From NCBI GenBank assembly GCA_910574935.1, contig CAJTCU010000026.1, positions 1 through 33,428 of the forward strand: a stretch of 33,428 nucleotides of DNA, read 5' to 3'. The notes under the pieces were generated by a model. The model was given only the letters and a program-made list of their open reading frames with translations, was not told the DNA's origin and did no database searches. Shown here piece by piece: positions 17,290 to 33,216 of the stretch. Origin of the DNA: Oscillospiraceae bacterium. Lineage in GTDB: Bacteria > Bacillota > Clostridia > Oscillospirales > Acutalibacteraceae. Both the position numbers and the translations under genes were made by a program. Within the stretch, counting starts at the first letter, position 1. Each line of letters opens with the position of its first letter.

Positions 17290-18750
17290 TCATCTTGCAT
17301 AGATAACTTCATCGTTTATGATACGAAGAGCTTGTTGTTCCAGTCTGTATGCTTCATATCTTTTTGCATTTGCTTCCAGCGCAAGTGCATTGATCCGCTT
17401 TTGCATCTCCTGATTTTGCAACAACGGAATAGGGATTTGACGAACATGATTGTCGTCAATTTCATCCACCACAGAGCCGTAGATGTAGCGGGTAATCAAG
17501 GGATAGCCATAATCAGATGCCAGAAAAATATAAAGGTATCCGGCAATATCTTTATTAGCAGGAACAACACGGATAATATGGTCGGAAGGAACCCAATGTT
17601 CCCAGTGACGCGGAACAAGCATTGTTTTACCTATAGTTCCGCTGCGCGTTATCAGGGTTGTGTTTTCATGCACTTCGAGGCTACTAAAAATTTTATCATG
17701 CTTTGTATTGGACAGGTATTTCTTTCCAGATGGGTCAAGTTCACCTAACTGTTTTCCACCAACAAGGACTCTACCATATCCCTCTTCCACATAAACTCGT
17801 TTGAATCTGCCTGGTAGAATGACTGCCTTGCTGATTCGGCTGTCACCGACTGTCGTCACTTCAGCAGCGTATTTTTTCAAGTGAGCAACCATCGTGTCTA
17901 CCACCGGAATATGGTAAGAAGCATCAAGGCGCAAATCCACATTGCTTAGTTTTACATCAAATGTGCTTACAGGTGCGGATATCTTTTGAAAGTCCTGTAT
18001 CGCAGGCAGATGAAGTTCTGTGACCATCAGCTTTGTGGCTGTATCAATCAGTTTGTTGGATTCATCTCGTAAAGCATAGGAACCTACAATCAAATCATGG
18101 ATGCGTTGTTTTAACATCATGGGTGCGTCCGGAATTTGGATTTCAGCAATATGCGCCGGTTCTATCTCCGATATAACGGAACCAAAAATATTTGCTTTAA
18201 TAAGAAGTTGTCCCGTTTTAGATTTCAGGAAAGCATATACATACCCTGGAAAGTCACGGCATTCCAGGCGAATGGCATGTTCGCTGACCAGCAACTTTGA
18301 TAAAGTTTTATTTACAAATGTCAAGTTTCCTATGGTGCCAGATCGTGACAACAATATCATTCCGTAGGATACCCTCAAATCGTTTATGGCAGGAGAATTC
18401 ACCATAAACTTAATTGGCTTTGGCATTATGTCGAGCATTTCAGAACTGCCAACGAAACCAACCGAACTCTTGTGTTCCTTACTCACATAGTTTCGTTTTA
18501 ATCTTCCGCCATAATAGGCACACTTAACTGGGCTGTGTTCGCCTATCAGCGGCAGAGATTTATATCTACCACACTTCACAGTTTCCCAAGCCTGTTTTGC
18601 CTCAACATCAAACACACTGGCCTCCAAGCGTTTTTGACGGGAAAGCACATCGGACAAGGAAACCGAACACCACTTAACCGGACTTTCAGTAATATGTACT
18701 TCTGTTTCTATAGGGACGGATATTCTCCGGGCGAGATTTCCTGCTACCAT
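17290..18750 (-). CDS. Restriction-modification specificity subunit (HsdS-like / BcgI-B-like)
   Basis: 486 residues with two target-recognition domains. Each ends in the same kind of segment: LLSRSGTIGNLTFV ... SKLLVSEHAIRLE and LITRSGTIGKTMLV ... VPSDHIIRVV. Each is followed by a Y[AI]FL(x)S(x5)L(I/L) stretch and a conserved I-P-P or QIPIP boundary, then a coiled helix (RINALALEANAKRYEAYRLE). This is the type I S-subunit plan, also used by type IIB specificity subunits. ATG 18750 overlaps the stop of the methylase gene. The gene is intact, unlike its partner. Without a working methylase subunit it is probably idle. Confidence 0.9.
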   Translation of the reverse strand: MVAGNLARRISVPIETEVHITESPVKWCSVSLSDVLSRQKRLEASVFDVEAKQAWETVKCGRYKSLPLIGEHSPVKCAYYGGRLKRNYVSKEHKSSVGFVGSSEMLDIMPKPIKFMVNSPAINDLRVSYGMILLSRSGTIGNLTFVNKTLSKLLVSEHAIRLECRDFPGYVYAFLKSKTGQLLIKANIFGSVISEIEPAHIAEIQIPDAPMMLKQRIHDLIVGSYALRDESNKLIDTATKLMVTELHLPAIQDFQKISAPVSTFDVKLSNVDLRLDASYHIPVVDTMVAHLKKYAAEVTTVGDSRISKAVILPGRFKRVYVEEGYGRVLVGGKQLGELDPSGKKYLSNTKHDKIFSSLEVHENTTLITRSGTIGKTMLVPRHWEHWVPSDHIIRVVPANKDIAGYLYIFLASDYGYPLITRYIYGSVVDEIDDNHVRQIPIPLLQNQEMQKRINALALEANAKRYEAYRLEQQALRIINDEVIYAR

Positions 18751-20763
18751 GAGATACCCTCCCTTCGTTTCCAGGCCTCGAAGAGTTTCGGCACATCGGC
18801 AGTCTGATCATCTAAAACCTTACACTTTCTTTCGTGAGAAACAGTACGGTCACCTTCCCCGGTTTCGCCAAGCACTCTGATGGTGTCTGTATCAGGCATA
18901 AGGATTTCGTTGCCCTGCACATCACGCTTGAATAAGGGATTGCCTCTCTTGTCATGTCAAACTCGCTCAACCATCGCCATGAAGATATTGTAGTCAGCCA
19001 TTTGTCCTGTACGCTCCTCAGTTGCTTTCTGCTCAGCAGTTTTCTTTTGGAGAAACAGAACAGATGTCTGCGTTCCGTTACGTGGTTGGAATGTGTCTAC
19101 ATGAAGGTCAACACTGGCAATAATTTTGTGATTTTTAATCAGCCATTCACGGATATATCCAAGTCCCGGCGAGCCAAGAATGGAATCTGGTAAGACAATT
19201 CCCATGCGTCCGCCAGGGACAAGGAACTGAGTGCATCGTTCAATAAATAGAATTTCCGGCGGGACAGATGACTGCAACCGATCTGTCATTTTCCAAGTTC
19301 CGGTTTTCTTATCATTTTCCCAGATATGGGCAAGTTCAAACTGCTCAAGGATATTCTTGTCCTTAATGGGAATCTTGCTACCAAACGGGGGATTGGTTAC
19401 AATCACATCAAACAGCGCAATGGTCTTGTGGTTACGGAGGCCAACACTATCAATGTGCAGTGCTTCTGCAAGGCGTGTCCTGAACTCATTCGTCCATTCG
19501 TGTGGGAAGAAGTGAATTCGTTTGCAGAATATTTCCGCTCCCATCGTTATTCATGACCATGTTCATCTTGGTCGCTTTGACTAAATCCGGGTTAATGTCA
19601 AAGCCAAAGAAACTGGTTGCTGCCATCTCGGAAATTCGGTCTTGAAATACTTTTATCGTATCACTATCCCAATTTTTTCTGGGAATCCCCATACTGCTTG
19701 AAAAATCTTTTTCGAGCTGACCTATAACGTGTGTCATGGCCTGAACGAGGAAACCGCCAGTACCACAGGAACTGTCCAGCACCTTCTCGTCAATACGAGG
19801 ATTTATCATCTCCACAACCATTTTCATAACATTTCGGGGAGTGAAAAACTCTCCTCTGTCGCCACGGAGATTTGCACCCACGATTTCTTCATAGGCTTTT
19901 CCCTTAATATCAATGTTAGTATTAAGTAAACTGTACCGTTGCAATTCACTGACAATATAAGCCAAGCTGCGCGGTGTCAGTTTGATTTCATCATTGGCAT
20001 CAAAGATTTTTCCATGACGCTTTTTTACACGCTGAAAGATTTGAGAGATGCGTTTTTGCACAGTCAATTGTCCATCAGGATTAGAGCGTTCCTCTGATGT
20101 CGTATAAAATTCCAAAGGCTTAGGAATATTGCGCTCGTCCTCAATTTTGCAGAAAATGACTTTCAGCAGTTCAAAAAAAGCCGGCTGTTTTTGCATCCCA
20201 TCATTCACATAGATGTGATTATGGCAGGTCTTGAACACAAAGAGCAGATTATCATCAGAGGCATTGCGGAGGCTTTTCCGGCTGGGTCTGTTGACATCAT
20301 CCAGACTGCCATCGGCAGAGGGAATATCGTTGTAGTCCATAAAGGAGATATTCCCCGCATCATCTATGCACTTGCGAAAAACAAACTTCTGAACGCTGTT
20401 AGTCCACATTCCCCATTCGCAGTTTGGGCATACAGACATATAGGATTGTAACTGCGCTACCCCATCCTTGGCATTTCGAGCGTCCACAGTTTCTCTCTTG
20501 CATTCAATAATGATTTTAATAGTACCTTGCGTTTGCTCAGCAGCATCTTTATCCCAGACTACGATATCTGCCCTTGGCTTCCTTGAGCCAACTTGGAGAG
20601 TATACTCAATCTTAATCTGCGATGTAAGATATTTGTGTTCATTCACAAGACGCTTCTCTATCGTTTGGCGAACGTACTCCTCTGGAGTATCATTTCTAAA
20701 CTTGCTATCGATATAATCACAGATTTTTCCTTCTGGAATAACAATCACCTTTGTATCAGCCAT
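18744..20763 (-). pseudogene. Fused PD-(D/E)XK nuclease / N6-adenine methylase subunit (BcgI-A-like), broken by a frameshift and a stop
   Basis: ATG 20763 (with GGAGGAAACAACG) starts a subunit of about 672 codons. Residues 30-120 are an HsdR-N-like nuclease domain: PRADIVVW, IIIECKRE and AQLQSYM give D, E-x-K and Q-x3-Y. Then come a helical domain, methylase motif I (DSSCGTGGFL) and motif IV (VTNPPFGSK). A one-base indel near 19500-19507 splits it (NSLLP / HEWTNEF), and TGA 18957-18959 interrupts the C-terminus; the same frame continues HDKRGNPLFKRDVQGNE to TAG 18744. Nuclease and methylase in one chain, plus a separate S subunit and no hsdR nearby, is the BcgI-type IIB plan. Confidence in the domain calls is high; in the type IIB class it is moderate. 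Confidence 0.8.
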
Positions 20764-21013
20764 CGTTGTTTCCTCCATTTTCTCTGGAAGGACGGACATA
20801 ACGAATTATGTCAGACAAGTCACAGTCGAGGGCATAGCAAATACGAGCCAGAACATCAAGGTCTGGGCGCTTGATGTCATTCTTGCAATATGTGTTTAGC
20901 TGCGTCCGTTGCAGATTTGCATTTTCAGCCAAAAAGTTCTTACTTATATTCTTTTTCGACAAATACTCAGCTAAAACAATGTCAAAGTGACCATAGTCAA
21001 GCAACTCACTCAT
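20756..21013 (-). CDS. XRE-family HTH regulator, likely controller of the RM operon
   Basis: An 85-residue single-domain Cro/CI-type protein: AEYLSKKNISKNFLAENANL, then QRTQLNTYCKNDIKRPDLDV and ARICYALDCDLSDIIRYV. ATG 21013 follows AAGGGGGTAACGAT. It overlaps the methylase gene by 8 nt, so both share a transcript. In restriction-modification operons such small XRE proteins act as controllers that time methylase and nuclease expression; that role is inferred from position. The MITE copy at 21032-21211 starts 18 nt upstream of its start codon, so any promoter must be inside or beyond the MITE. Confidence 0.85.
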   Translation of the reverse strand: MSELLDYGHFDIVLAEYLSKKNISKNFLAENANLQRTQLNTYCKNDIKRPDLDVLARICYALDCDLSDIIRYVRPSRENGGNNDG

Positions 21014-21031
21014 ATCGTTACCCCCTTATCT

Positions 21032-21211
21032 TTAAGGCAACCCCGCACCATTCGCGGCTGGCGCCTTAAGCACCGTCTTGCTTGCAGATTTTCCGTGATA
21101 GCGCACAGCTTTCGCTTGTCAATGGTAAGGTTGACGGCGCTCAATCTGTACACTCTGAAGAAAAATCTGACTGCGCAATACAGTACTTAGAATTGTGCGG
21201 TATTGCCTTAA
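21032..21211. mobile_element. MITE-like element, copy B (180 bp, inverted relative to copy A)
   Basis: It begins TTAAGGCAACCCCGCACCAT and ends with the complement of TTAAGGCAATACCGCACAAT. Its reverse complement follows copy A (988-1154) almost base for base, apart from a 13-14-bp insertion (AGGCGCCAGCCGCG) near one end and scattered substitutions. Non-coding. It sits directly before the controller gene of the RM operon. Confidence 0.8.
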
Positions 21212-21315
21212 TAATCATATCACGGCGCTTCCAATATGTACAGCTGTAATTATCTGCACAGCTGGAGCTTTTTGACACTTCATATGTAACGTATAAAACA
21301 CCAGAGTGAGGCTTG

Positions 21316-21713
21316 CTAGTATAACAAGTCTTCTTCTGGTATCCACCGTCTCCTGCCCCCGCATTTGCAAGAGTTTTGGACCTGTAAAGCGTTGATTATC
21401 TCGCTCTTGATGACTTCCTCGTCGCGGTTGGCGATGCTATTCATCGCCTTGCCCCACTCCCACTGCGACCGCCGCTTCAATTCCTCACGCCAGCGGCTTT
21501 CATCAACTGCGGCAGGAGCGTGTCCATGCGCTGCTCTGCCATCCACTCGACACCCTTCAGGCGGTCAGCCAGCTTGCCACTGTTCATCAGCACCATCCAC
21601 AGCTTGGGCTTATGCTCCCGGAGGTAGTCGCGCCGAAGATCGCCGTACTTGCCATAGAATACATCCTGCTTCGGTTCCTCGTCAAGTATCAGATCGGGGA
21701 TGTAGTAGTCCCC
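21316..21713 (-). pseudogene. tnpV: 3' part of a tnpV-like gene split by the 21714-33152 element
   Basis: The minus strand reads GDYYIPDLILDEEPKQDVFY, then GKYGDLRRDYLREH ... LWMVLMNSGKLADRLKG, a TnpV-type protein (compare the intact copy at 32682). Near 21489-21500 a one-base shift leads into REELKRRSQWEWGKAMNSIA and ends at TAG 21316-21318. Its 5' part (MSKLKPRIHGEASDLDYILA) is at 33153-33216. Joining the two across GGGG restores LAG-DYYIPDL in frame. TnpV function is unknown. The gene was therefore dead twice: by the insertion and by a frameshift. Confidence 0.85.
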
Positions 21714-21784
21714 GCTTTACTTTACTTAAGGATAATCCTTCGGGGAACTGCCGCAAATGGCACATTCCCCATAGTTTCTATCTT

Positions 21785-23389
21785 TCAATCAATCTTTCCG
21801 ACAAAACGGTAGTAAATTTCAATATCCCATACTTTCTTACCGTTCTCGTCTTTCCTCCACTGATGGACTGCGATTTTCTCAATCAGCTCATTCAAAAGCG
21901 GGACGGTAAGCTCGTCAATGGCGCTGTATTTCTGGATTAAGTCTACCCACCGTTTTGCATCATCCGTTTCCGCTTTGGTTTCCTCAAGCCTTGCGGATAT
22001 GGTCTTTATTGTTTCGTCAAGCTGTTGCTGCTCCGTGCGGTATTTGACGGAGAGCATGGAATAGTTTTCTTCGTCAAGAAGCCCTTTTACCCTGTCCTCA
22101 TACATTTTCGCAAAAAGGTTGTTCAGTTCCTGCCTGCGTTTTTGTGCCTTTTTCAGCTCCTTTTCATCACGGGCATTCTCTGACCGCCGCTGTTTCTCGC
22201 TGCTCTGCAGCAGCCGCTCCAAAATGGCATCCTCATTCTTTTTTACTGCCATCAGCCAGTACTGTAACCTTCCGAGAACAAAAGCATAGAGCAGATTGTA
22301 AGTGATGAAATGCAGGGAACACGCTTCTTTCCCATGTGCGGAATACTGCGTGCAGCGGTAATACCTCGACTTGTTCTTTGTGTTTGCCGCCGACAAGCTC
22401 CAACCGCACTCGCCGCATTTGAGCAGCCCTGCGAATATCTGCGGCTCATCGTCCTTTCGGCTGCGTTTGCGGGAATTAATATGCCCCTGCACTAAATCCC
22501 ATGTTTCACGGTCAACTAATGGCTCGTGGGTATTCTCAATCCGCATCCAGTCCTCTTTCGGTCGCTTGACGTTCTTCTTTGACTTGTAGGAGAGTTTCTG
22601 TATCTGATAATGAACGGTGTTGCCAAGATAGATTTCATTCTGAAGGATTTTGCTTACGGTAACGATGTTCCAGAGGTATTTCTTCCCCTCTGGCTGACCT
22701 TCAAAAATGTTCGCCTTGTAACCGTTTTTCTGTGACGCCCACCATGCGGGTATCGGGACTTTCTCGGCGGCAAGGGTGCGGCAGATTTTGTTTGCCCCGT
22801 ATCCATGCGCCGCAAGCTCAAAAATCCGCTCCACAATCCACTTGGTTTCCTCGTCAACGACAAGCCTGTTCTTCTCGGCAGGGTTGATTTTATAGCCGAT
22901 TGGCACGACAGGGGCGATGTATTCCCCGTTCTTAAACTTGGCTTTCATCGCATTTTTTACCTTGCGGCTCGTTTCCTTTGCCTGCCATTCGTTGACAATG
23001 TTCTTGAATGGGGCGATGTCGTTGTCCTCCCTTATCGTGTCAACGCCGTCATGGATTGCGATGTACCTTACGCCCTTGCTTGGGAAATAAAGCTCCGTGT
23101 ACTGCCCCGTGAGGATATAGTTCCTGCCAAGCCTTGACAAATCCTTTGTGACAACGCAGTTGATTTTCCCGTCCTCTATGTCCTCAATCATGCGTTTGAA
23201 ACTCGGTCGCTCGAAATTTGTACCCGAAAATCCGTCGTCCACATACTCGTCTACGACTAAAAATCCCTGCTCATTTGCGTAATCCCTTAGTATCTGTTTC
23301 TGCGTGGAAATGCTTGCGCTCTCCCCTTCCAGCTCGTCATCACGGCTTAGACGCATATATAACGCTGTATTGTATTGCTGCTGTTTCAC
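21785..23389 (-). CDS. tnpX: Large serine recombinase (TnpX-type integrase/excisionase)
   Basis: About 534 residues. The N-terminal resolvase domain has the catalytic serine in YMRLSRDDELEGES, and FVVDEYVDDGFSGTNFERP-type and TKDLSRLGRN motifs. A recombinase domain follows (VPIGYKINPAEKNRLVVDEE), then a zinc ribbon (LLKCGECGWSLSAANTKNKS ... YRCTQYSAHGKEACS) and a long coiled coil (KRRQELNNLFAKMYEDRVKG). GTG 23389 is used because AGGAGG lies 9 nt upstream. This class recombines a short site with a 2-bp core and excises the element as a circle. The left end of the element is 71 bp beyond its stop codon. Confidence 0.93.
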   Translation of the reverse strand: MKQQQYNTALYMRLSRDDELEGESASISTQKQILRDYANEQGFLVVDEYVDDGFSGTNFERPSFKRMIEDIEDGKINCVVTKDLSRLGRNYILTGQYTELYFPSKGVRYIAIHDGVDTIREDNDIAPFKNIVNEWQAKETSRKVKNAMKAKFKNGEYIAPVVPIGYKINPAEKNRLVVDEETKWIVERIFELAAHGYGANKICRTLAAEKVPIPAWWASQKNGYKANIFEGQPEGKKYLWNIVTVSKILQNEIYLGNTVHYQIQKLSYKSKKNVKRPKEDWMRIENTHEPLVDRETWDLVQGHINSRKRSRKDDEPQIFAGLLKCGECGWSLSAANTKNKSRYYRCTQYSAHGKEACSLHFITYNLLYAFVLGRLQYWLMAVKKNEDAILERLLQSSEKQRRSENARDEKELKKAQKRRQELNNLFAKMYEDRVKGLLDEENYSMLSVKYRTEQQQLDETIKTISARLEETKAETDDAKRWVDLIQKYSAIDELTVPLLNELIEKIAVHQWRKDENGKKVWDIEIYYRFVGKID

Positions 23390-23413
23390 TTGTTTTAACC
23401 TCCTGTCCTTTGG

Positions 23414-23473
23414 AAACAGCCTGCCACAATACATTGCTTGCATGAATCTATTATAGCATGGGGCAGGCTGTTT
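23414..23473 (-). promoter_or_regulatory. tnpX promoter flanked by a 12-bp inverted repeat
   Basis: On the minus strand TATAAT (23450-23455) is preceded at 17 bp by TGGAAA (23473-23478), a plausible sigma-A promoter. A perfect 12-bp inverted repeat, AAACAGCCTGCC / GGCAGGCTGTTT, brackets the -10 and start region (23414-23425 and 23462-23473). It could be a repressor or recombinase binding site, or form a hairpin in the leader. Confidence 0.55.
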
Positions 23474-23494
23474 TTCCATCGCCAGCGGCAATTA

Positions 23495-23707
23495 TTAGGC
23501 AGATTTTTTTCTTTCGTACCGCATGACATTCTCCGCAAGCCTTTCCACGGTCTGCTTTTTATCGCTGAAATGCTCGGTAAAACAGATAACGTCTTTGCCG
23601 CAAATAAAGAATGACTGACCGTCTTTTTCTATGAAGCAGCCCTGTGGGATGCCTTTTTCCTTTGGCTTTATGCCTGTCTGTATCATCCTGTCGAACAATT
23701 TAACCAT
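23495..23707 (-). CDS. Small conserved mobile-element protein
   Basis: 70 residues (MVKLFDRMIQTGIKPKEKGI ... QSFFICGKDVICFTEHFSDK) with a basic helical end (RLAENVMRYERKKSA). It lies 7 nt after the relaxase stop and 105 nt before the recombinase start. No recognised domain. Position suggests an accessory of mobilization or excision. Confidence 0.65.
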   Translation of the reverse strand: MVKLFDRMIQTGIKPKEKGIPQGCFIEKDGQSFFICGKDVICFTEHFSDKKQTVERLAENVMRYERKKSA

Positions 23708-23714
23708 TCACTTC

Positions 23715-24680
23715 CTACCTTTCCTTTGACCTGTTTTTACTTGATTTCTGCAATTCCTCTAATACTTCTGGCGGTATCTTTTTCAATAACCTTTCCATCT
23801 GCTGATTGGTTTTCTGCAATTCAAATATCCTCTGGTTTGCTTTCTGTACCTTTCGTTCCTGCTCGTACTTCTCATCACGCATACGCCCCGCATAGTCGGC
23901 TTCCTGCCCGATTCTCTCTTTCAAGCTGTCGATATACGCCTGCTGTTTGCCGATTTCCTTAGAGAATTTCTCCACGTCTGGAAGCCATGCGGAGAGCAGT
24001 TCTAACGCCTTATCTCTTTTTTTGCCTGCGTTAAAGGCGTTGATGTCGGAGAGGGCAGACACGATTTCCGCATACTGTTTATCCAGACTGCCTCCCAGCT
24101 TATAGAGCCATGTGGGGATATGCTTGCGCTTCGTTTCCATTGAGGACTGCCCCCGTTCAAGCTGATTCCACCGTGCGGACATCCGCTCATGGTAGGCGGT
24201 CTGCCATTCGGATAGGGATTTCTGGTTGCCTAAAATAGACTTTGCTGACAGCTTGTTGTCTGGCGTAAGCGGCACAAAGCATAGGTGCATATGGGGCGTC
24301 CTCTCGTCCATATGGACGACTGCGGAGAGGATATTCTGCTTTCCCACACGCTCCGAAATAAAGTCAAGAGCCGTCTGGAAATACGCTTTTTGTTCTTCGG
24401 GCGGTAAGCTGTTCATAAATTCGGGCGAAGCTGTGATGAGCGTTTCCACCATCATCACGCTGTCTTTTCTTACCTTACAGCCCGCTTCCTTTACCATTTG
24501 GTTTATCTCTTTTTTATAGGTGTACTTTGGCGGTGCTATGAGATGGTAATTGTTTTTAGAACGTTCCGTATCAATATCTGGATTGCTTTTATAGGCTTCT
24601 TTCTTCCGCTCGTTGTGGCGTTCACAAGCCGCAACGCCGCCTGCCTTGCGTTTCTGGAAACGCAGGATTGCATAGGGCAT
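23715..24680 (-). CDS. MobV-family relaxase (Mob/Pre, TnpZ-like)
   Basis: 321 residues. The relaxase opens MPYAILRFQKRKAGGVAACE and RHNERKKEAY. The metal-binding histidine motif is VVHMDERTPHMHLCFVPLT (H-x-D-E-x2-P-H-x-H), and the C-terminal third is a coiled coil (QQAYIDSLKERIGQEADYAG ... RIFELQKTNQQMERLLKK). It would nick the oriT at 24876-24906 and lead the strand into a recipient with help from another element's transfer machinery. ATG 24680 has GGAAG upstream; the frame reaches 24716 without a site. Length is shorter than plasmid Mob/Pre proteins (about 400-490), as is common in transposon versions. Confidence 0.93.
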   Translation of the reverse strand: MPYAILRFQKRKAGGVAACERHNERKKEAYKSNPDIDTERSKNNYHLIAPPKYTYKKEINQMVKEAGCKVRKDSVMMVETLITASPEFMNSLPPEEQKAYFQTALDFISERVGKQNILSAVVHMDERTPHMHLCFVPLTPDNKLSAKSILGNQKSLSEWQTAYHERMSARWNQLERGQSSMETKRKHIPTWLYKLGGSLDKQYAEIVSALSDINAFNAGKKRDKALELLSAWLPDVEKFSKEIGKQQAYIDSLKERIGQEADYAGRMRDEKYEQERKVQKANQRIFELQKTNQQMERLLKKIPPEVLEELQKSSKNRSKER

Positions 24681-24717
24681 AGTCAATCTTCCTTTCTTCG
24701 GCGGGTAATCTTCCAAA

Positions 24718-25182
24718 GGGTGACGGTTGGTGACGGTGGTGACGGTGTTTTTGGGATACCCCCACGGAAGCCGCTAACTGTCACCGCACATTCTTCCATC
24801 CGAAGCCGCAAGGCAGAGGATGGGCAGGGCGTAAGCCCTGCTTTAAGGGAGTCCAGAGGGAACGTCTGGCACACGACTTTGCAGGGCAAAGTGTAGTGTG
24901 TTACACCCTGTAAACGCAGTCGGAAAAATCGGGGGATTTTTCTGACCGCAGGGGTGGCTTTACGAGCCGAAAAGGGCGAGTAATGCCCACGCCTGCATTT
25001 TGCGTTTATGGGGTGTTCTCCCGCAGGGATGACAGCGACGGGGGTATCCCAATATTGCCGTCATCACCGTCACCGCTGTCACCCGCAGGGCAGAACCGCC
25101 GATTTTACATACATCCGCTATGACGGTGACAGTGGCAGGGGGTATCCCAATCTAACCGTCATCACCGTCACCACCGTCACCC
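24718..25182. repeat. Three iteron-like repeats around the Rep gene's 3' end
   Basis: Unit A (24718-24763) is on the plus strand; units B (25041-25084) and C (25138-25182) are on the minus strand. Each reads GGGTGAC followed by two more TGACGG boxes, a 5-6-nt variable spacer and TTGGGATACCCCC. Unit C forms the last codons of the RepA-like gene (QSGDGGDGDDG). The repeats surround an otherwise non-coding stretch with the oriT. They are candidates for a replication origin bound by the RepA-like protein, or for a regulatory site. Confidence 0.7.
24876..24906. other. Origin of transfer (oriT) of MobV type
   Basis: ACTTTGC - AGG - GCAAAGT (24876-24892) is followed by GTAGTGTGTTACAC. This matches the layout of the pMV158/MobM origin, where a small inverted repeat precedes TAGTGTG/TTA and nicking occurs after that G. 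The equivalent nick here would fall between 24900 and 24901. It lies about 200 bp upstream of the relaxase start, as expected. Confidence 0.8.
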
Positions 25183-26147
25183 GACTGCCTTGTGAGGGAA
25201 ATCTCCCTGCCCCCTTTCTTCCTGTGGTAGCTGTAACAGATATTGTTTTCACTGAGGAAACCGGCACGGTATTCGTTGAGCCGTTTCGTCATGATGTTGG
25301 GCGGCGTTCCCGTTTCCCCCATCGCTTCCAGAAGTTCTGTTGCCGTGCCAGTCCATTCCCCCTTGTCTTGCATGAAATACACCAACCGAAAAAGAACGTC
25401 TGGTATCGCTTCTTTGGCAAGCTGTTCCTGCTCTTTCCGCTCCACCAACTCCCAACTGCAATCACGGAAACGGAGCGTAAACTCCTGATAGGGCGTATCC
25501 CTGCCCGTCACATATAACTTTGCGGCATTGGACGCACGGCTTTCCTGTTCCAGAACAAAGGTTGCGTCTGCACTCCCCGTCAATCCCGTCGTGCCAGACA
25601 CTTTGTTGAACACGTCGCTGTCATTCTGCTTTCGGATATGGTGTACGACAATGACCGCTATAGCGTGCCTGTCGGCAAAGTCTTTGATAAGGGAGATGTC
25701 CCCGTAGTCGCTTGCATAGGCGTTGTCTTTGGATGCGGTACGGACTTTCTGTAAGGTGTCAATGACAATGAGCCTGCTGTCGGGGTATTCTTTCAAATAG
25801 TCCTCCAACTGCACGATAAGACCGTCTGAGAGCTTATCGCTTGCCACCGCAAAGTGAAGCCGCCCGCTCGCTTCGTCCGTCAAATGGAACAGCCTGTCCT
25901 GTATGCGGCAGAACGTGTCCTCCAAACAGAGGTAAAGCACGTCGCCCTCCTGTGTGTGCATATCCCATAAGGGGATTCCCTGCGACACGCATAGGCAGAG
26001 CTTTAACATGAGCCAACTCTTGCCGATTTTCTGTGAGCCGCAGAACAGGATTAAGCCCGTGGGGATCAGACCGTCCACCACAAAGGACGGCTTCTCAAGC
26101 GGCTCATAAAGAAGCGTGTCGGCGTTGACTGTCTGAAGCTTCTGCAT
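25152..26147 (-). CDS. RepA-like AAA ATPase / DnaB-type helicase domain protein
   Basis: 331 residues. Walker A-like ILFCGSQKIGKSWLMLKL near residue 32, Walker B-like RLIVIDTLQKVRT, and the RecA-fold motif VIVVHHIRKQNDSD followed by SGTTGLTGSADATFVLE are those of RepA/AAA_25 replicative helicases of plasmids and ICEs. A C-terminal winged-helix-like part follows (GEWTGTATELLEAMGETGTP). ATG 26147 follows AAGGAGGAATTCT. The tail SGDGGDGDDG is encoded by the repeat at 25138-25182. The likely role is replication of the excised circle or of the mobilized strand. Confidence 0.85.
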   Translation of the reverse strand: MQKLQTVNADTLLYEPLEKPSFVVDGLIPTGLILFCGSQKIGKSWLMLKLCLCVSQGIPLWDMHTQEGDVLYLCLEDTFCRIQDRLFHLTDEASGRLHFAVASDKLSDGLIVQLEDYLKEYPDSRLIVIDTLQKVRTASKDNAYASDYGDISLIKDFADRHAIAVIVVHHIRKQNDSDVFNKVSGTTGLTGSADATFVLEQESRASNAAKLYVTGRDTPYQEFTLRFRDCSWELVERKEQEQLAKEAIPDVLFRLVYFMQDKGEWTGTATELLEAMGETGTPPNIMTKRLNEYRAGFLSENNICYSYHRKKGGREISLTRQSGDGGDGDDG

Positions 26148-26190
26148 AGAATTCCTCCTTTCGGGTGGTGTCTTTGGTTTTGTTGCGCAT
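26104..26190 (-). CDS. 28-residue peptide overlapping the RepA-like start
   Basis: ATG 26190 follows a strong AAGGAGGTCACACCT. The charged peptide (MRNKTKDTTRKEEFYAEASD...) ends at TGA 26104, overlapping the first codons of the RepA-like gene in another frame. Either a leader peptide coupling translation of the ATPase or a small regulatory product. Confidence 0.5.
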   Translation of the reverse strand: MRNKTKDTTRKEEFYAEASDSQRRHASL

Positions 26191-26299
26191 AGGTGTGACC
26201 TCCTTAAATTAGATTTACTCCCACGAAAAAGAGTGAGAGTATGTAATGCCGCCATCCCCACGCCGATAATAAGCGGATTCCTTTTTCGGGCGGTAACAG

Positions 26300-26773
26300 T
26301 CAAGGTTGAAGATACTTCCTCATTTCTGCCTTGACTTTCTCCTTTGCAACCGAAACAGACTTCTGGACAGCGGAAGCGGTGCAATGCTCCATCTCGCCAA
26401 TCTGGTAAAAATTAAAATCATACTCGTAATAGAGCAGGAAACGCCGCCTTTGTATCTCTGGCAGTCGGGCAACCGATTTGTAAAACAGTTCATTCCGTTC
26501 TTTCTCAATCATGCTTTCATCAAGCGTCTTAGGCACTCGCAACGCCCGTCTGTAAAGCGTTTCATCCCATACCTCGTTAAACTCCCTGTGCCGCTGGTTC
26601 CATTGCTGAAGGTTCCTGTTCCTGCGTTCCATCTGCCGAAATTTAAAGAATAGCTGTTCTGACACTTCCAGTTCGTGGTGTTCCCCCTGCCCGTCCTTAA
26701 AGCTGATAAAATACCTTTTGCCGCTTTCCGTGGATTCCTCCCGAAGCGTGTATGTCTTTGCCCCGTATGCCAT
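26300..26773 (-). CDS. Sigma-70 region-4-like protein of a mobile element (1)
   Basis: 157 residues. N-terminal beta-rich part (TYTLREESTESGKRYFISFK) and a basic helix (FKFRQMERRNRNLQQWNQRH), then a sigma region 4-like C-terminus: ARLPEIQRRRFLLYYEYDFN, FYQIGEMEHCTASAVQKSVS, VAKEKVKAEM. Such proteins are common in clostridial ICEs and probably regulate element genes. ATG 26773 has GGGAGGAAAGGAA upstream. It follows a second protein of the same type, separated by a terminator-like hairpin. Confidence 0.75.
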   Translation of the reverse strand: MAYGAKTYTLREESTESGKRYFISFKDGQGEHHELEVSEQLFFKFRQMERRNRNLQQWNQRHREFNEVWDETLYRRALRVPKTLDESMIEKERNELFYKSVARLPEIQRRRFLLYYEYDFNFYQIGEMEHCTASAVQKSVSVAKEKVKAEMRKYLQP

Positions 26774-26786
26774 TTCCTTTCCTCCC

Positions 26787-26817
26787 GAAAAAAATTGAGC
26801 GGGAGGATTGCCCTCCC
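26787..26817 (-). terminator. Terminator-like hairpin between the two sigma-like genes
   Basis: The minus-strand stem GGGAGGG - CAAT - CCTCCC is followed 6 nt later by a T-run (ATTTTTTT). Because it lies between two genes and just before a ribosome binding site, it may act as an attenuator. Confidence 0.5.
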
Positions 26818-26839
26818 ACCCAATAGCCCGTGGAAATGG

Positions 26840-27283
26840 TTAAATTTCCCCGAAAGGATAAAAAATAGGTTTTAATTTTTTGCGGAGCCGTTCAAGGCGT
26901 TTGTAGAGCGCCCTTTCGGTAAGCCCTGCCATTGTCGCAATCTCCCTTGTGGAATACCCCTGCATTTTCAGCAGGAGAATGAGCAGGGTATGCTTGTCCA
27001 CCGTAAGAAGTGCCTGATACAGTTTCTCGTCCTCAATCTCGTCCAGCAAGTCCGCAACGGTAGTCGGCTCTGCCTGCTGTTCAGCGTCCGCCACTCCCTC
27101 AAGGTATTCGCCGAAGTCGCTCGTCCATCGGTAAAACCGCCTGTTGGAATTAAAGTCCGCCCTGTCATCCATGCGGATTTGCTCAATGACCGCTTCATCA
27201 ACGCCATGCTCACGCAGCACTTTTTCCTCGGCTTCTTTCCAGATACGCCATTTCCTGTCCTCACGTCCGTGGTTATATGCCAT
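26840..27283 (-). CDS. Sigma-70 region-4-like protein of a mobile element (2)
   Basis: 147 residues with a charged helical N-terminus (KWRIWKEAEEKVLREHGVDE), an acidic middle and a helix-turn-helix at the end: LLLKMQGYSTREIATMAGLT, ERALYKRLERLRKKLK, the region-4 pattern of small sigma-like proteins. ATG 27283 follows GGAGGAAATAAGGA. Probably the first gene of the replication/mobilization transcript. It could be a transcription factor that responds to element excision; this is inference. Confidence 0.75.
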   Translation of the reverse strand: MAYNHGREDRKWRIWKEAEEKVLREHGVDEAVIEQIRMDDRADFNSNRRFYRWTSDFGEYLEGVADAEQQAEPTTVADLLDEIEDEKLYQALLTVDKHTLLILLLKMQGYSTREIATMAGLTERALYKRLERLRKKLKPIFYPFGEI

Positions 27284-27609
27284 TCCTTATTTCCTCCAAT
27301 CCGAATTTTTGAAAAATGTAAAAAATCCAGATTGGATAGGCGGCGAACGACAGTCAACAGCGGAAACACCCCTGCGGCACATTCTGATAAAAAACGACAA
27401 AAGAAAAACCGCAAAGGCTCTGCGACCTCTACGGTTATAAGAGATACATATTCTGTTAAGTGGAGATTCTACTTCTGGTTTCATGGTGAGAAGTAGCGTT
27501 GCATAAGCAGGGATTTTTTTAACTGGCTTCCTGCCATTCCCCGATATGCTATGTATAAGTCAATTCTGCGTTGCATGAGCAGATGGATAACTGCCCGAAA
27601 AAAGGACAT
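27284..27609. other. Non-coding region between the mobilization and cargo modules
   Basis: No gene is well supported. A 65-codon minus-strand frame (27287-27484, start MKPEVESPLNRICIS) has no ribosome binding site and a composition unlike a protein. The segment likely holds the promoter of the minus-strand genes to its left. Confidence 0.4.
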
Positions 27610-27645
27610 AAAAAATCCCTCCAAACTTAAAACAGGTCTGGAGGG
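27610..27645 (-). terminator. Rho-independent terminator of the cargo operon
   Basis: Minus-strand stem CCCTCCA / TGGAGGG with a 15-nt loop followed directly by ATTTTTT. It ends transcription coming from the ABC transporter genes at 27732-30611. Confidence 0.8.
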
Positions 27646-27676
27646 TAACGTCTATTTATTTAGGCATGGTAAAGCC

Positions 27677-27710
27677 GCCCACCGAACCTCGTTTTTTTTA
27701 TTCGGTGGGC
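27677..27710. repeat. Perfect 10-bp inverted repeat after the permease gene
   Basis: GCCCACCGAA / TTCGGTGGGC with a 14-nt loop, 21 nt beyond the stop of the last ABC gene. Probably a first, weak terminator or an RNA-stabilising stem ahead of the terminator at 27610-27645. Confidence 0.6.
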
Positions 27711-27731
27711 AAGTATCACAATGATTTTTTA

Positions 27732-28370
27732 TCAATATCTCTTTCTTCTTTCGTAAATAAAAACTACTGCAATTACCAGCAAACTTAAACCGAAAAGCCA
27801 TATCTTTGTGGAATAATTGCCTTTTCCCATTGAGAACAAATAGAAAATACTATCCTCTGATACATTCCCCAAAGAATTTAAAAGAAAATATCCGATTGAC
27901 GCCAAGTAACCTACAATAACAGAATTGCTGAATATGGCTGCTGCAAATCCAAAGCTCCCCAATGCCATTGCGCTTATCACTGTTCCCGCCACATAAGGCA
28001 CAAAGGGAAATATACAGTTTTCCCATACCATAATTCCAGAGAACAGGCATACCATCATAATTAGCAACAGCATTGACATGATGAACCGCAGCAATAAGAT
28101 TTTCCAATGTGGAAATTTCTTTGTGCAAACTACGTCCTGTATTGCCTTAGACTGTTCTGGGGCAGGCAACGGAGCTATGAGAAATACTCCTGTTAGTATT
28201 ACAGCCTGTTCCAAACATTCCGCAGAACGAACCATATCTAAATTTGCAATCCCCCTTAGTAAAGGAATTATCAGCAAATAAACCGCCGCCAAAAATAAGT
28301 TATTTTTTACTACCAAAAGAAAGTTTGTCCTGCATATGCCCAAAACACTTGTGATAGATATTCGCCGCAT
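27732..28370 (-). CDS. ABC transporter permease (second subunit)
   Basis: 212 residues with about six membrane helices (FLLVVKNNLFLAAVYLLIIP, ILLLRFIMSMLLLIMMVCLF, IWLFGLSLLVIAVVFIYERR). No periplasmic domain. ATG 28370 has AAAGGAAAAATAA upstream and lies inside the end of the preceding permease gene (71-nt overlap). Resembles ABC-2-type permeases; probably the partner of the 464-residue permease in a peptide transporter. Confidence 0.75.
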   Translation of the reverse strand: MRRISITSVLGICRTNFLLVVKNNLFLAAVYLLIIPLLRGIANLDMVRSAECLEQAVILTGVFLIAPLPAPEQSKAIQDVVCTKKFPHWKILLLRFIMSMLLLIMMVCLFSGIMVWENCIFPFVPYVAGTVISAMALGSFGFAAAIFSNSVIVGYLASIGYFLLNSLGNVSEDSIFYLFSMGKGNYSTKIWLFGLSLLVIAVVFIYERRKRY

Positions 28371-29694
28371 TTATTTTTCCTTTCCGCTTAAACTTAAGAA
28401 CCCATATGGACAGAACGACAAATAGAATACTGATTCCCGCCATAAGCAGCCTGTTCCTGCAAATCATTTGAAATTCATCTTGTATCACTTCATAGCCACG
28501 CAATGTATTGTGCCTTATCATTAAAGTCGCTGCTTTCGTGTCCCCTGACAGTCCTGTTACTCCCTTATCAACCATCCACCAAAGGAATTGAATGGCAATC
28601 GCAATCGGAGAGTCTGTGAGCAAAGTGAAAAATATTCCGATTGCGGATACCGCCATGACCTCTGGCAGAAGCCACCATAAAATGTATTTGATATACGCAA
28701 AATAGTCTACTGAAATACCTTTCTCTACGCCAAACGAAATAAGCGGCACAAGGGATTCAAAACTTAACAGCAAAACAGGCAGGAGAACCATAGTGATACT
28801 TGCCAAATATCTTGAAACCACCAGTCTTGCCGAAGATATTTTTTTGCTGTAAATCAATTCTGACGCATTGCCCATACGGTCTTTCATCCATATAAGCACT
28901 ACCAAAAATATAGGATACAAGCCTAGTTCCAATCCTATATAATCACAAAATAACCGTGCAAAACCGCCTGTCACTTTATCATTGCTGATTGTCTGGTTAT
29001 ATTCCTCACATGCTTCCTCATAAGTCATTTCCGACATGCCAAAATAGGTAATCATCATTTCGGGGGAGTACTGTGAACCGTTTTCCCCGATAATGCTTTC
29101 CATTTCCCGCATTAGCTCTTTGAAATGTCCATAAGTGACCTGTGGTATAAAATGCTTATATTTATCTTCTCCGCTTCCTGTGTCTGCCCTATTTCCCATC
29201 ACCGTATTCAAATTTCCATTTTCATCAACACTCATTGCGTCAAAGGAAATAATTGTGCCTGTGACTGCTGGAAAATAATCTTCTGGCAAATCTTTTAATT
29301 GTTCTTCCGTCAATCCCGTTATTTCACAAAGTATTTCAAGTACACGTTTTTGCTCATCATCGCTAAGCGTAATCGCTTTATAGTATCCAATGGGATATGT
29401 GGCGTAGCGGTTGCTTTCATATTCTGACAGTAACGCCCTTGTAACGCCCATCATGATTGCCGCCGGGTCATCCTCTGAAACTTTACTGCCAAAGTAATCG
29501 TCCTCCTCGGATGGTTTGGACAGTAATGGGCGTTCAAAACCTATATCTGCCGGGGGAATACCTTTTTCCCAATTGATTTCTGTTTTTGCCACTCCCCGAA
29601 AATTCTGGAACCAGCTAAAAACCAAAATAGCGAGAAAGAAATAATAAATCACACTTGCTGCAATCTTTTTACACTCTTTAAAATATAACTTCAT
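28300..29694 (-). CDS. ABC transporter permease with a large extracytoplasmic domain
   Basis: 464 residues: a helix at about 13-30, an acidic outside domain of about 230 residues (PSEEDDYFGSKVSEDDPAAI; DEQKRVLEILCEITGLTEEQ), then five or six membrane helices and a basic cytoplasmic tail. This fits ABC-2-type permeases of peptide-antibiotic sensing/resistance systems. It overlaps the ATPase stop by 4 nt (ATGA). The outside domain is the likely ligand-contact part; this is inference. Confidence 0.75.
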   Translation of the reverse strand: MKLYFKECKKIAASVIYYFFLAILVFSWFQNFRGVAKTEINWEKGIPPADIGFERPLLSKPSEEDDYFGSKVSEDDPAAIMMGVTRALLSEYESNRYATYPIGYYKAITLSDDEQKRVLEILCEITGLTEEQLKDLPEDYFPAVTGTIISFDAMSVDENGNLNTVMGNRADTGSGEDKYKHFIPQVTYGHFKELMREMESIIGENGSQYSPEMMITYFGMSEMTYEEACEEYNQTISNDKVTGGFARLFCDYIGLELGLYPIFLVVLIWMKDRMGNASELIYSKKISSARLVVSRYLASITMVLLPVLLLSFESLVPLISFGVEKGISVDYFAYIKYILWWLLPEVMAVSAIGIFFTLLTDSPIAIAIQFLWWMVDKGVTGLSGDTKAATLMIRHNTLRGYEVIQDEFQMICRNRLLMAGISILFVVLSIWVLKFKRKGKINAANIYHKCFGHMQDKLSFGSKK

Positions 29695-30611
29695 CGTTCT
29701 ATCCCTCCCTCTGTCTGGCTTAACAGATACATATACCCATCTTCCAACGTAGGGGGTTGAAGCATATATTTTTCTTCTGGCTCCACGTCTGACAATACCC
29801 TGTACTGTATGTCTGACTGTGAAGAAATGATATTTAAGACAGCATACTTTTCCTTGATATGTTTATCCTGCTTTTTTGCCGCTGAAATAAGGTAAACTTT
29901 TCCCTCTGCCTGTCCCACCAGTTCTTCCGTACTGCCATTCCATATCATTTTCCCATTGTTCAATACTCCTATATTTTCACAGCACGATTCAACATCCGAA
30001 GAAATATGGGTAGAAAGAATCACTATCCTGTCTTCTGCAAATTCACTTAGCAGATTACGGAAACGAATACGTTCCTCTGGGTCAAGCCCTGCTGTCGGTT
30101 CGTCAACAATAAGGATTTGCGGGTTATGTAACAGTGCCTGTGCAATCCCCAGCCGTCTTTTCATCCCTCCCGATAAAGCCTTTACTTTCGTCCGCATATC
30201 TTCTTTTAGATTTACCTGTTCAAGTAATGCGGGTATTCTTTCTCTTCGGATTTTATCTGGAATTTCCGACAGCAGCCCAAGGTAATCCATTGCGCCATAA
30301 ACGCTCATACCTCTGTAAAAAGAAAAATCCTGCGGGAGATAACCTACGATTTCCCGTATTTTACCTGTTTCTTTGATTGGGATACCATTCATACTGATTT
30401 CCCCGCCTGACGCTTCTGATAGCGTCGCCAAAATTTTCATAAGGCTTGTTTTCCCTGCGCCATTCCGCCCAAGAAGCCCGTACATTCCAGAATGGATCGT
30501 AACGGATACATTTTCAAGGGCTGTCTTTTTTCCATAGTTTTTGGAAAGATTTCTTATTACAATTTCATTGTTTTTGCCGTATGGCATAAAGGTATCCTTT
30601 AGGATTTCCAT
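29691..30611 (-). CDS. ABC transporter ATP-binding protein (peptide resistance type)
   Basis: 306 residues: Walker A GLLGRNGAGKTSLMKI, Q-loop VGYLPQDFSFYRGMSVY, signature LSGGMKRRLGIAQALL, Walker B ILIVDEPTAGLDPEERI, switch ILSTHISSDVES, and a C-terminal extension of about 80 residues typical of drug/peptide exporters of the CcmA/BcrA type. Two starts are possible: ATG 30611, with GGAGG 11 nt upstream inside a hairpin, and ATG 30587 (MPYGKNNEIVIRNL) with AAAGGA at normal distance. Follows the two-component system and leads the transporter genes. Confidence 0.9.
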   Translation of the reverse strand: MEILKDTFMPYGKNNEIVIRNLSKNYGKKTALENVSVTIHSGMYGLLGRNGAGKTSLMKILATLSEASGGEISMNGIPIKETGKIREIVGYLPQDFSFYRGMSVYGAMDYLGLLSEIPDKIRRERIPALLEQVNLKEDMRTKVKALSGGMKRRLGIAQALLHNPQILIVDEPTAGLDPEERIRFRNLLSEFAEDRIVILSTHISSDVESCCENIGVLNNGKMIWNGSTEELVGQAEGKVYLISAAKKQDKHIKEKYAVLNIISSQSDIQYRVLSDVEPEEKYMLQPPTLEDGYMYLLSQTEGGIER

Positions 30612-30623
30612 AAATACAAAAAC

Positions 30624-30646
30624 CTCCTTACTTGTGTTGTAAGGAG
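30624..30646 (-). promoter_or_regulatory. Hairpin that buries the ribosome binding site of the ABC ATPase gene
   Basis: On the transcript CTCCTTAC - AACACAA - GTAAGGAG forms a perfect 8-bp stem whose 3' arm contains the AGGAGG used by ATG 30611. An AT-rich TATTATAA box lies just upstream. The stem may limit translation or end transcription weakly (GGTTTTTG follows). Confidence 0.55.
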
Positions 30647-30683
30647 ATTTTATAATAGAAAAGCCAATTTTCCGAAAAGGATA

Positions 30684-31862
30684 TTAAAAACTTTTTAATT
30701 TGGCGGTTACACATGCCCCCTTTTCTTTCTGATTTCCGACATACAATAAACCGCCATGTTTTTCACAAAGTATTTTACATACGCTTAAGCCTATACCAAA
30801 ATGCTGTTTTTCCTTATCATTACTGTAAAATGCAGTGGTTGCTTTTTCCAAATCTGCCGCTGAAAAACCTTTCCCATCATCCTTTACCGTAAGAATGAGA
30901 AAATCTTTTTTGTGTGAAAGGTTTATGCTTACTTGTTTTTCTGCATATCTTAATGCGTTCTGCAGGAGATTTTCTAAAATCCGAAAAAACACGCCCTTAT
31001 CTATTTGAATTTTGTCCACCGTAATATCGTTTGAAATAATGATTTCTTTATTTCCCGCAATCTGCCGCACATTACTTCTTAATTCATTCAATAATAGCTT
31101 CACATTTTCAGACCGTTTTTCAATTTCAATAATTTCAATCTTCTCAATATCCCGAACGCTCTCCACATATAGCTCCAAACGGTTTACCGCCCCCTGCATA
31201 GATGATACCGTATCTAAAAGCATATCTTCCGTAAGCTTATCCTGTGGGATATTTTTCTCTAAATAGTCTAAATATCCTTTGAGGACGGTAATCGGCGTCC
31301 TTAAATCATGAGATACCGAAGCATTCAATAATTTCCTTTGTTCTAAGGATTCCCACAACGCTTTGTGTTTTTGCCGAAGCTCCCCGCGCATTTTTTCCAT
31401 AGAACAGCATAACCGCCCTAACTCATCATCACCGTCATATTCAATGTGAAAGTCAAGATTATCCTCCTGTATTCTTTCCACGCCATTCTGTAACTGTGTG
31501 ATAGGCTCCCGAAGCTTTTTTCGGTAATATACCGCCGCAGCCGCCCCAATCCCGACAGCAATATAAAAAACAGGCAGACCAACCATAGCAGCATAAGAGC
31601 CATAATAGATGACAGTATCCCATCTGCTTAAAGGCTGCCATGTGATATTGTTGTTATCAATATCCAAAATATAATTGCCTGTGTTCTCATCCATCTGAAA
31701 ATCAGGGGAATTTATCGTCATATACCGTTTCTTTAATATTTCATGCTGCACTTGGTTTGCCGTAAAGATAGTGATAGACGATAACAGGGCAGTCACACAT
31801 ATCGTAATGAAAAAAGTAACTGCCATAGATGTCTTAAGCGACTTTGTTTTTATTTTGCCCAT
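30684..31862 (-). CDS. Sensor histidine kinase
   Basis: 392 residues: two membrane helices (about 13-34 and 88-112) around a 50-residue outside loop, a HAMP-like linker, the phospho-acceptor SVSHDLRTPITVLKGYL (His185), N box ENLLQNALRYAEK, G1 VKDDGKGFSAADL and G2 HFGIGLSVCKILCEKHGG. Start ATG 31862 overlaps the regulator's stop by 13 nt. The small outside loop suggests that it senses at the membrane or through the ABC transporter, as in bacitracin-type (Bce/Psd) modules. Confidence 0.92.
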   Translation of the reverse strand: MGKIKTKSLKTSMAVTFFITICVTALLSSITIFTANQVQHEILKKRYMTINSPDFQMDENTGNYILDIDNNNITWQPLSRWDTVIYYGSYAAMVGLPVFYIAVGIGAAAAVYYRKKLREPITQLQNGVERIQEDNLDFHIEYDGDDELGRLCCSMEKMRGELRQKHKALWESLEQRKLLNASVSHDLRTPITVLKGYLDYLEKNIPQDKLTEDMLLDTVSSMQGAVNRLELYVESVRDIEKIEIIEIEKRSENVKLLLNELRSNVRQIAGNKEIIISNDITVDKIQIDKGVFFRILENLLQNALRYAEKQVSINLSHKKDFLILTVKDDGKGFSAADLEKATTAFYSNDKEKQHFGIGLSVCKILCEKHGGLLYVGNQKEKGACVTAKLKSF

Positions 31863-32527
31863 TTATAACCGACTCCCCATACTGTTTCAATATAGTTTTT
31901 ATCCGTATAAACTGACAGCTTATTCCGTATCTTTCGGATATGTTCTTTTACTACAATGCTATCGCCCTCGCCATTATATCCCCAAAGTTTTTCATAGATG
32001 GTTTCCCTGTCAAAAACCATGCCTGCATTTTGGGAAAGAAAACGGATAATCTCAAATTCTTTATTTGAGAAGTCTAACTGTTCCTTACCATAAAATACAG
32101 TTCGGCTATTGTAATCAATAATCAATTCTTCATCAAACCTTAGATTTTCTGCTGTGCCATTTCTTTCTTCACGCCGAAGGTGCGCCGAAATTCTTGCCAA
32201 TAATTCATCCATGCTAAAAGGTTTTGTAATATAATCATCCCCGCCGACAGACAGCCCCTTTATCACATCCCGTTCCGTTACCCGTGCTGTCAAAAAAATA
32301 ATTGGGCAGGATATATGCCCTCGGATAAGCTGGCACAATTCCAATCCGTCCATTTCTGGCATATTGATATCCAACAATATAATATCTGGTATTACGTTTA
32401 ATAGTTCTAACGCTTTTTTTGCATTTTCCGCTGTATATACGGAAAATTCTTCTCCTAAACATTTTTCCATCATGGATAATATCATTTCTTCATCATCAAT
32501 AATCAGTATCTTGTATTTCATAGGCAA
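31850..32527 (-). CDS. OmpR/PhoB-family response regulator
   Basis: 225 residues. Receiver domain with DDEE (residues 11-14), phospho-acceptor D53 (ILLDINMPEMDG), T-loop FLTARVTERD and KPFSMDELLARI. C-terminal winged helix: LDFSNKEFEIIRFLSQNAGM, VFDRETIYEKLWGYNGEGDS, VVKEHIRKIRNKL, ending VWGVGYKW. ATG 32527 follows AAGGAGCATTGCCT. First gene of the cargo operon; its likely target is the promoter before the ABC genes. Confidence 0.93.
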   Translation of the reverse strand: MPMKYKILIIDDEEMILSMMEKCLGEEFSVYTAENAKKALELLNVIPDIILLDINMPEMDGLELCQLIRGHISCPIIFLTARVTERDVIKGLSVGGDDYITKPFSMDELLARISAHLRREERNGTAENLRFDEELIIDYNSRTVFYGKEQLDFSNKEFEIIRFLSQNAGMVFDRETIYEKLWGYNGEGDSIVVKEHIRKIRNKLSVYTDKNYIETVWGVGYKWAK

Positions 32528-32643
32528 TGCTCCTTATCAGTTAATCCCTTTATCGTAGCCGATAAAAGACAAATTTTCGACAATTTCACGCCAAGTGATT
32601 ATAATTATACCCGTTATTTCCATTGCTATCAACAGCATTGCAT

Positions 32644-32675
32644 ACGGGCGGCAGAAATCACTTTCTACCGCCCGT
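32644..32675 (-). terminator. Hairpin after the element's tnpV gene
   Basis: ACGGGCGG ... CCGCCCGT with AGAAA / TTTCT inside, 7 nt past the tnpV stop. No T-run follows, so it may stabilise the transcript or need another factor to terminate. Confidence 0.5.
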
Positions 32676-32681
32676 GTATAG

Positions 32682-33053
32682 CTATGCAAAAATAATTTCC
32701 TCGTTCACAATTTCCCTCGCACACGCCCTTATGTTATTTAGGCATTGCACCCATTCTAAGGCATTTTCTTCCTTTAGGCGTTCTGTTATTCCCTGTGCCT
32801 GTTTCATGCCCTCTATGAGCCTGTGGGAGCGTTCCTGTGCCTGCCTGTCTACATCTACAAGATAGGCGTTGAGCCTGCCGCTTGTAAGAAGATTGGTGTA
32901 TGTAACCTTATGGTACTGTTTCAGATAGTCCAAGTGCCGCTGTCCCCATGTGCCTATCGGCTGTTCTTCTTCGGCGGGTAATCTTAAATCTGGAATAAGA
33001 TACCCATTTTCTTCGTGGTATGTGCCGCCTAACTGTTCAAATAGTGATTTCAT
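32682..33053 (-). CDS. tnpV: TnpV, intact copy carried by the element
   Basis: 123 residues: MKSLFEQLGGTYHEENGYLI, PDLRLPAEEEQPIGTWGQRH, LDYLKQYHKVTYTNLLTSGR ... LKEENALEWVQCLNNIRACA and REIVNEEIIFA. This is the TnpV family of Tn4451-type transposons, whose role is not known. ATG 33053 has GGAG upstream; the frame extends to 33107 without support. It sits 99 bp from the right end of the element and is a distant relative of the tnpV gene that the element disrupted. Confidence 0.88.
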   Translation of the reverse strand: MKSLFEQLGGTYHEENGYLIPDLRLPAEEEQPIGTWGQRHLDYLKQYHKVTYTNLLTSGRLNAYLVDVDRQAQERSHRLIEGMKQAQGITERLKEENALEWVQCLNNIRACAREIVNEEIIFA

Positions 33054-33152
33054 CTGCAAAAACTCCTTTTCTGTATGGTTTGGTTTTTGCGGGGTATTTG
33101 CAAGCAATGTATCAGCAGGCTGTATGTATATACTATCTTTAAGTTAAGTAAA

Positions 33153-33216
33153 CCCCAGCAAGGATATAGTCAAGGTCGCTTGCTTCGCCATGGATTCTCG
33201 GTTTCAATTTGCTCAT
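33153..33216 (-). pseudogene. tnpV: 5' part of the split tnpV-like gene
   Basis: ATG 33216 (GGAGGTGCACATA upstream) encodes MSKLKPRIHGEASDLDYILA then G, where the inserted element begins. The rest of the gene is at 21316-21713, and joining at GGGG gives LAGDYYIPDL. Read into the element, it stops after four more codons (VYLT-stop). Confidence 0.85.

Follow-up and report, generated by a model that had tools for sequence, protein, structure and literature searches.

An integrative mobilizable element resembling Tn4451/Tn6104 at a GG core in tnpV, the preferred target of its clade

The window, i.e. the whole stretch of DNA analyzed here, is an entire contig of 33,428 bp and part of a 4.17-Mb genome. 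We observed that it carries an inserted element flanked on both sides by parts of a tnpV gene. In the order of transcription on the minus strand, the element contains its own tnpV, a response regulator, a histidine kinase, an ABC ATPase, two membrane proteins, two sigma-70-region-4-like proteins, an AAA_25 ATPase, a MobV relaxase, a 70-aa ORF and a large serine recombinase (Table 1). The recombinase, which carries DUF4368, is 38% identical to plasmid records annotated tndX. As in elements of the Tn4451/Tn6104 type, this recombinase is accompanied by a TnpV and by a mobilization protein, here the MobV relaxase, without a conjugation machine of its own: no leftover ORF of the element is long enough for a full one (by eye, with part of the ORFs scanned). 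For the scanned element proteins no drug-resistance model of NCBIfam reached its cut-off among the matches listed. Scans for tRNA and Rfam families gave no match, and the one tandem repeat detected is short and irrelevant to the question. Judged by its sequence, the window element belongs with the Tn4451/Tn6104-like integrative mobilizable elements.

Table 1. Features of the inserted element and of the tnpV gene around it (window positions)
Feature	Position	Strand	Basis
3' part of split tnpV, mosaic, frame broken near 21,487	21316..21713	-	Pfam TnpV
Inserted element, 11,443 bp including one copy of the GG core	21712..33154	-	ends equal in relatives; core by codon-3 variation
GG core, recombinase-side junction	21712..21713	-	codon-3 variation among relatives
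Large serine recombinase (Resolvase, Recombinase, Zn_ribbon_recom, DUF4368)	21785..23491	-	domain search
70-aa ORF	23495..23707	-	without family match; kept in relatives having the same module
MobV-family relaxase (Mob_Pre)	23715..24716	-	domain and NCBIfam search
AAA_25 ATPase	25152..26384	-	domain search
Sigma-70 region 4-like protein	26300..26773	-	Pfam, barely above cut-off
Sigma-70 region 4-like protein	26840..27283	-	Pfam, barely below cut-off
Cargo: probable membrane protein of ABC system	27732..28370	-	position and ORF; without NCBIfam match
Cargo: probable ABC permease	28300..29694	-	weak NCBIfam match, far under its cut-off
Cargo: ABC ATPase	29691..30611	-	general ABC similarity; no curated cut-off reached among the matches listed
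Cargo: sensor histidine kinase	30684..31862	-	domain search
Cargo: response regulator	31850..32527	-	domain search
Element's own tnpV	32682..33107	-	Pfam TnpV, 147.2 bits; ENGY in place of the targeted genes' GDY
5' part of split tnpV (ATG to ...DYILAG)	33153..33216	-	translation; resembles L027, L083, L084
GG core, tnpV-side junction	33155..33156	-	codon-3 variation among relatives

On the minus strand the 5' piece of the split gene (ATG...DYILAG) enters CCCC at 33153-33156 and the 3' piece (GDYYIPDL...) begins at CCCC at 21710-21713, so that the junction reads GGGG and the crossover is ambiguous from the window alone. In the right ends of relatives, conservation past the recombinase stop extends up to GTAAAGC, followed by GG and then by divergence; their left ends show GG and then GG[AT]TTACTTAA[CT]TTAAAGA. 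Since the codon at the right junction varies among the relatives (GGA, GGC, GGT or GGG), GG alone is common to both junctions. With the crossover on the first GG, the insertion therefore has the length and the two cores given in Table 1. An earlier note, made from the window alone, had removed 11,439 bp while keeping one GGGG and had held that no outside data were needed; its ends were approximately right, but the true length (4 bp more), the GG core and the nature of the target only emerged from the relatives and their codon variants. Its distance of 71 bp between the inserted DNA and the recombinase stop is correct, as the ORF ends at 21785, 71 bp from 21714. With the 4-bp correction, a mobilizable element with these ends is confirmed: relatives that have both ends sit in other genes, and the two flanks of other insertions are found joined in uninterrupted tnpV genes. 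The elements of the relatives range from 2,419 to 11,443 bp, with size and cargo varying and boundaries constant; neither the same genes with other boundaries nor an uninterrupted homologue with the two fragments apart, each a possible refutation, was seen. The 2-bp core, known from Tn4451/Tn6104-type elements, is GG here, with exact overlap in six insertions. The element would be expected to excise as a circle; the exact pattern of the predicted circle joint (right end to GTAAAGC, GG, left end GG[AT]TTACTTAAC) is absent from viral_contigs. The collected locus L025 was considered as such a joint and rejected: the alignment reveals a window-type right end (94%) fused to an L016-type left end (99.9%), so that L025:1300-1400 is either an assembly join or a place where two different elements stand in tandem and share one core.

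Next to the ends, the split gene itself deserves attention. The two fragments had been taken for one tnpV-like gene with an uninterrupted LAG-DYYIPDL frame. Pieces of tnpV type do flank the element and the frame is open locally over the join, but it is lost near 21,487, where the tnpV subtype switches. The Pfam TnpV matches of the 3' part lie at 21480-21719 (65.8 bits, above cut-off) and at 21394-21489 (22.7 bits, below cut-off). Before the switch the 3' part belongs to the L087 subtype (93% over 229 nt) and beyond it to the L084/L027 type (74-77%); the 5' piece is of the L084/L083/L027 type, and intact relatives exist for both subtypes. By these comparisons two tnpV subtypes are combined in the split gene, which is thus a mosaic with a broken frame and no single intact gene. 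The search for empty sites, also proposed in the earlier note, succeeded in 6 of the 13 other two-ended insertions (L010, L015, L016, L017, L018 and L052), where uninterrupted tnpV genes show an exact 2-nt GG overlap; for the other seven no uninterrupted relative matching both flanks was found among the collected loci. For the window's own gene there was no exact empty site: the flanks meet on its uninterrupted relatives (L027, L084) only within 2 nt, with an offset of -3 versus -1, a shift predicted by the frame break.

Recombination between two insertions in two tnpV genes, leaving left and right flanks of different origin, would also produce a mosaic target. The 5' piece of L084/L027 type adjoining a 3' segment of L087 type agrees with this, as does L025, where neighbouring elements appear joinable at the core. 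However, the last third of the 3' piece is back to the L084/L027 type, and the first ~14 bases past the core are compatible with either tnpV type. Because of this reversion a tract replaced inside one gene is the simpler explanation, and we regard recombination between two insertions as unlikely. In the vicinity we recognized a dispersed repeat of ~180 bp (window about 21031-21214), present in at least 17 more places in the genome at 84-97% identity and in weaker copies in same-genus genomes, which is possibly a miniature mobile element. Beside the split tnpV, ORFs at 17290-20799 (minus strand) resemble type I restriction-modification genes, with HsdM in two overlapping ORFs and HsdS (named from residues). 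With 66 serine-recombinase and 16 TnpV matches, the host genome is heavily loaded with mobile elements.

We investigated the insertion sites of the relatives by scanning contigs with the window recombinase, which gave 60 loci in genome_contigs, and by searching 128 loci for the end motif, which occurs 29 times on either strand, window copies excluded. Subtracting L072 (repeats L016) and L073 (repeats L053) and adding the window results in 28 distinct right ends. We observed that 22 of them enter tnpV at one codon and six lie elsewhere. Of those in tnpV, 21 give an in-frame match that begins at model position 29 (G in GDY) and one (L018) matches in shifted frames; the targets cluster into 21, 19 and 12 groups at 95, 90 and 80% identity, respectively. 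Behind the right ends of L023, L038, L051, L053, L061 and L067 no tnpV was found in six frames over 1.2 kb. Among the left ends, 18 of 21 carry a short tnpV-type N-terminus (by eye; L025 set apart) and L053, L060 and L066 do not; L064 and L065 share one flank. Serine integrases join their partners at a 2-bp core, and as GG differs from its own reverse complement the orientation of insertion is fixed; all 22 tnpV insertions share one orientation. The elements of L015-L018, each of 8,765 bp, differ from one another at 6-111 positions and sit in tnpV genes that are 84-87% alike; L015 and L017 differ at 6 positions and their host tnpV genes are 87% alike. In 27 of the 28 cases the recombinase is 79-99% identical to that of the window over the best segment, the window being counted as identical. 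The recombinase of L052 (L052:10001-11175) is 56% identical in residues 108-454 but 85% in the last 86, a pattern for which an exchange of the C-terminal end is possible; since L052 keeps the usual ends and target although most of its recombinase is at 56% identity, the target is not explained by the recombinase sequence as a whole. The named hosts of the relatives include Lachnospiraceae, Eubacteriaceae and Acutalibacter, among others. Few genomes of the window's own family carry the right-end pattern (3 of 398, counting this one).

Low-specificity transposition, as for Tn4451, would mean that many GG sites are used and that tnpV is met frequently because it is common, dispensable and surviving in mobile DNA. 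Six right ends outside tnpV, a possible survival bias and the description of DUF4368 recombinases as multi-targeting (accessible text of PMC10083194) all speak for it. However, tnpV makes up ~0.13% of this genome and holds 22 of the 28 right ends, all at one codon, which has a binomial probability near 1e-58 under random sites, and we therefore consider low-specificity transposition highly improbable. It is hardly credible that the tnpV pieces are part of the element, as an old duplicate or a misplaced end, and that no target was split: such elements do carry tnpV and this one's own adjoins the left end, but tnpV genes that differ from each other hold nearly the same element, six insertions have uninterrupted tnpV counterparts that fit the two flanks with an overlap of 2 nt, and three left and six right ends outside tnpV leave the element ends unchanged. 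The gene set, the ends and the core can be read directly from the DNA, as can the fact that close relatives have repeatedly entered different tnpV genes in one orientation. We conclude that this is very probably a Tn4451/Tn6104-like integrative mobilizable element whose own large serine recombinase inserted it within tnpV at the Gly-Asp-Tyr codons, on a GG core of 2 bp. The clade prefers tnpV, a gene typical of other mobile elements, which is its preferred and no accidental target; the preference is strong and not absolute, as six right ends and three left ends lie outside tnpV.

Some of the targeted tnpV genes, not all, lie in other mobile elements. In L015, the clear nested case, the target stands at the head of a sister element that has regulators (89-91%), an ATPase (87%), a MobV (92%) and a different recombinase. 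Behind the target of L052 a different recombinase and a regulator follow; a further recombinase occurs within 10 kb in L010, L014, L017 and L019, and in L045 we found a MobA/MobL protein and a phage-type integrase. Downstream of other targets we observed DUF3849 proteins (L009, L012), a large polyvalent protein (L010) and methylase or restriction-type genes (L013, L041, L063). At the remaining targets and at the window's own, no surrounding mobile element was identified in this annotation, which covers 20 of 69 listed ORFs.

By description, Tn6104 of Clostridioides difficile R20291 resembles the window element in its TnpX-related serine recombinase, TnpV and mobilization gene, and likewise in its two-component system, ABC transporter, sigma-like proteins and 2-bp end repeat (accessible parts of PMC3158075 and PMC5704250). 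It is listed in traG of a Tn5252-related ICE, whereas the window element and its relatives prefer tnpV (PMC5704250, in part). Tn4451 and Tn4453 share with it the TnpX-type serine recombinase, TnpV, the mobilization gene and a 2-bp core, but are reported there with low specificity and a GA core; the window clade uses GG and mostly one gene family, and with 22 of 28 right ends in tnpV the element does not fall within Tn4451 sensu stricto, defined by a GA core and numerous targets. IMEs are known in conserved ICE genes (traG, Maff2-like and SNF2-like) and in the oriT of ICEs (PMC5704250 and PMC7563843, both in part). Like the window element, these land on other mobile elements, but with other recombinases or targets; here the gene entered is tnpV, which in one clear case at least (L015) belongs to a sister mobilizable element. 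The DUF4368 serine recombinases described as multi-targeting have their C-terminal domain in common with the window recombinase, whereas here mostly one protein family is cut at one codon (PMC10083194, in part). Our literature search, with most subscription papers outside its scope, found no report of tnpV as an insertion target. As far as these sources go, IME insertion into ICE genes and oriT and multi-targeting by DUF4368 recombinases are known, and tnpV as a preferred target is new.

A sister group of loci, with recombinases 49-55% identical, mostly enters XRE-type regulators; the site is a run of W-E-x-G codons, and the insertion is at GG here too. In this group 20 right flanks are readable, of which 15 resemble the remainder of an XRE regulator (by eye); L033, L034, L043 and L069 are unlike XRE, L039 is doubtful and L050 masked. 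Nine left halves all match HTH_3, the matches reaching profile positions 32-37 of 55; this count is biased because the left halves were picked by SKWE/SRWE-type motifs. With one clade on tnpV codons and its sister group mostly on XRE regulators, both at GG, nature has performed an experiment on targeting, and the contrast makes the specificity determinants of DUF4368 recombinases testable.

The recombinase may read the DNA sequence and not the gene, with a motif around GG-NGAYTAY to which tnpV genes would be a very good match. A matrix built only from the six right halves outside tnpV gives this weak support: compared with 18,432 background GG sites, every one of the 22 tnpV sites ranks within the top 16%, and the best of them within the top 0.1%. 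Insertion would cut the resident tnpV after 9-23 codons and leave the element's own tnpV pointing the same way, presumably with the first in-frame ATG of that gene ~100 bp behind the junction; judged by its gene, the MobV relaxase would move the element with a conjugation machine that another element provides. We tentatively offer a bolder reading, which we hold to be rather doubtful: the recombinase clade homes on tnpV as a hallmark of other mobilizable transposons, a parasite of parasites that breaks the resident tnpV, may capture its promoter and has changed its own codons (ENGY versus GDY). A consensus scan of the minus strand between the junction and the element's own tnpV gave no promoter- or terminator-like site, a chance-level result that is weak evidence. 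The TnpV motif was read in 27 of 39 rows from this genome and family members (23 GD, 2 DG, 1 DD and 1 NG), 12 being unread by the pattern, and the single NG is the element's own; with 23 of the 27, GD is common in any case. The relatives' own TnpVs have ENG except in L013 and L022 (other or partial ORF), and that of L025 is incomplete yet ENG; since they share descent, the change counts as one event. These observations lend weak support to breakage of the resident tnpV, promoter capture and self-avoidance, and if this were true, ENGY in place of GDY would prevent the element's insertion into itself. By likeness to lambda Xis, TnpV has been postulated to act in excision (PMC3158075, in part). 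We suggest that mobilizable elements may compete by inserting into each other's tnpV.
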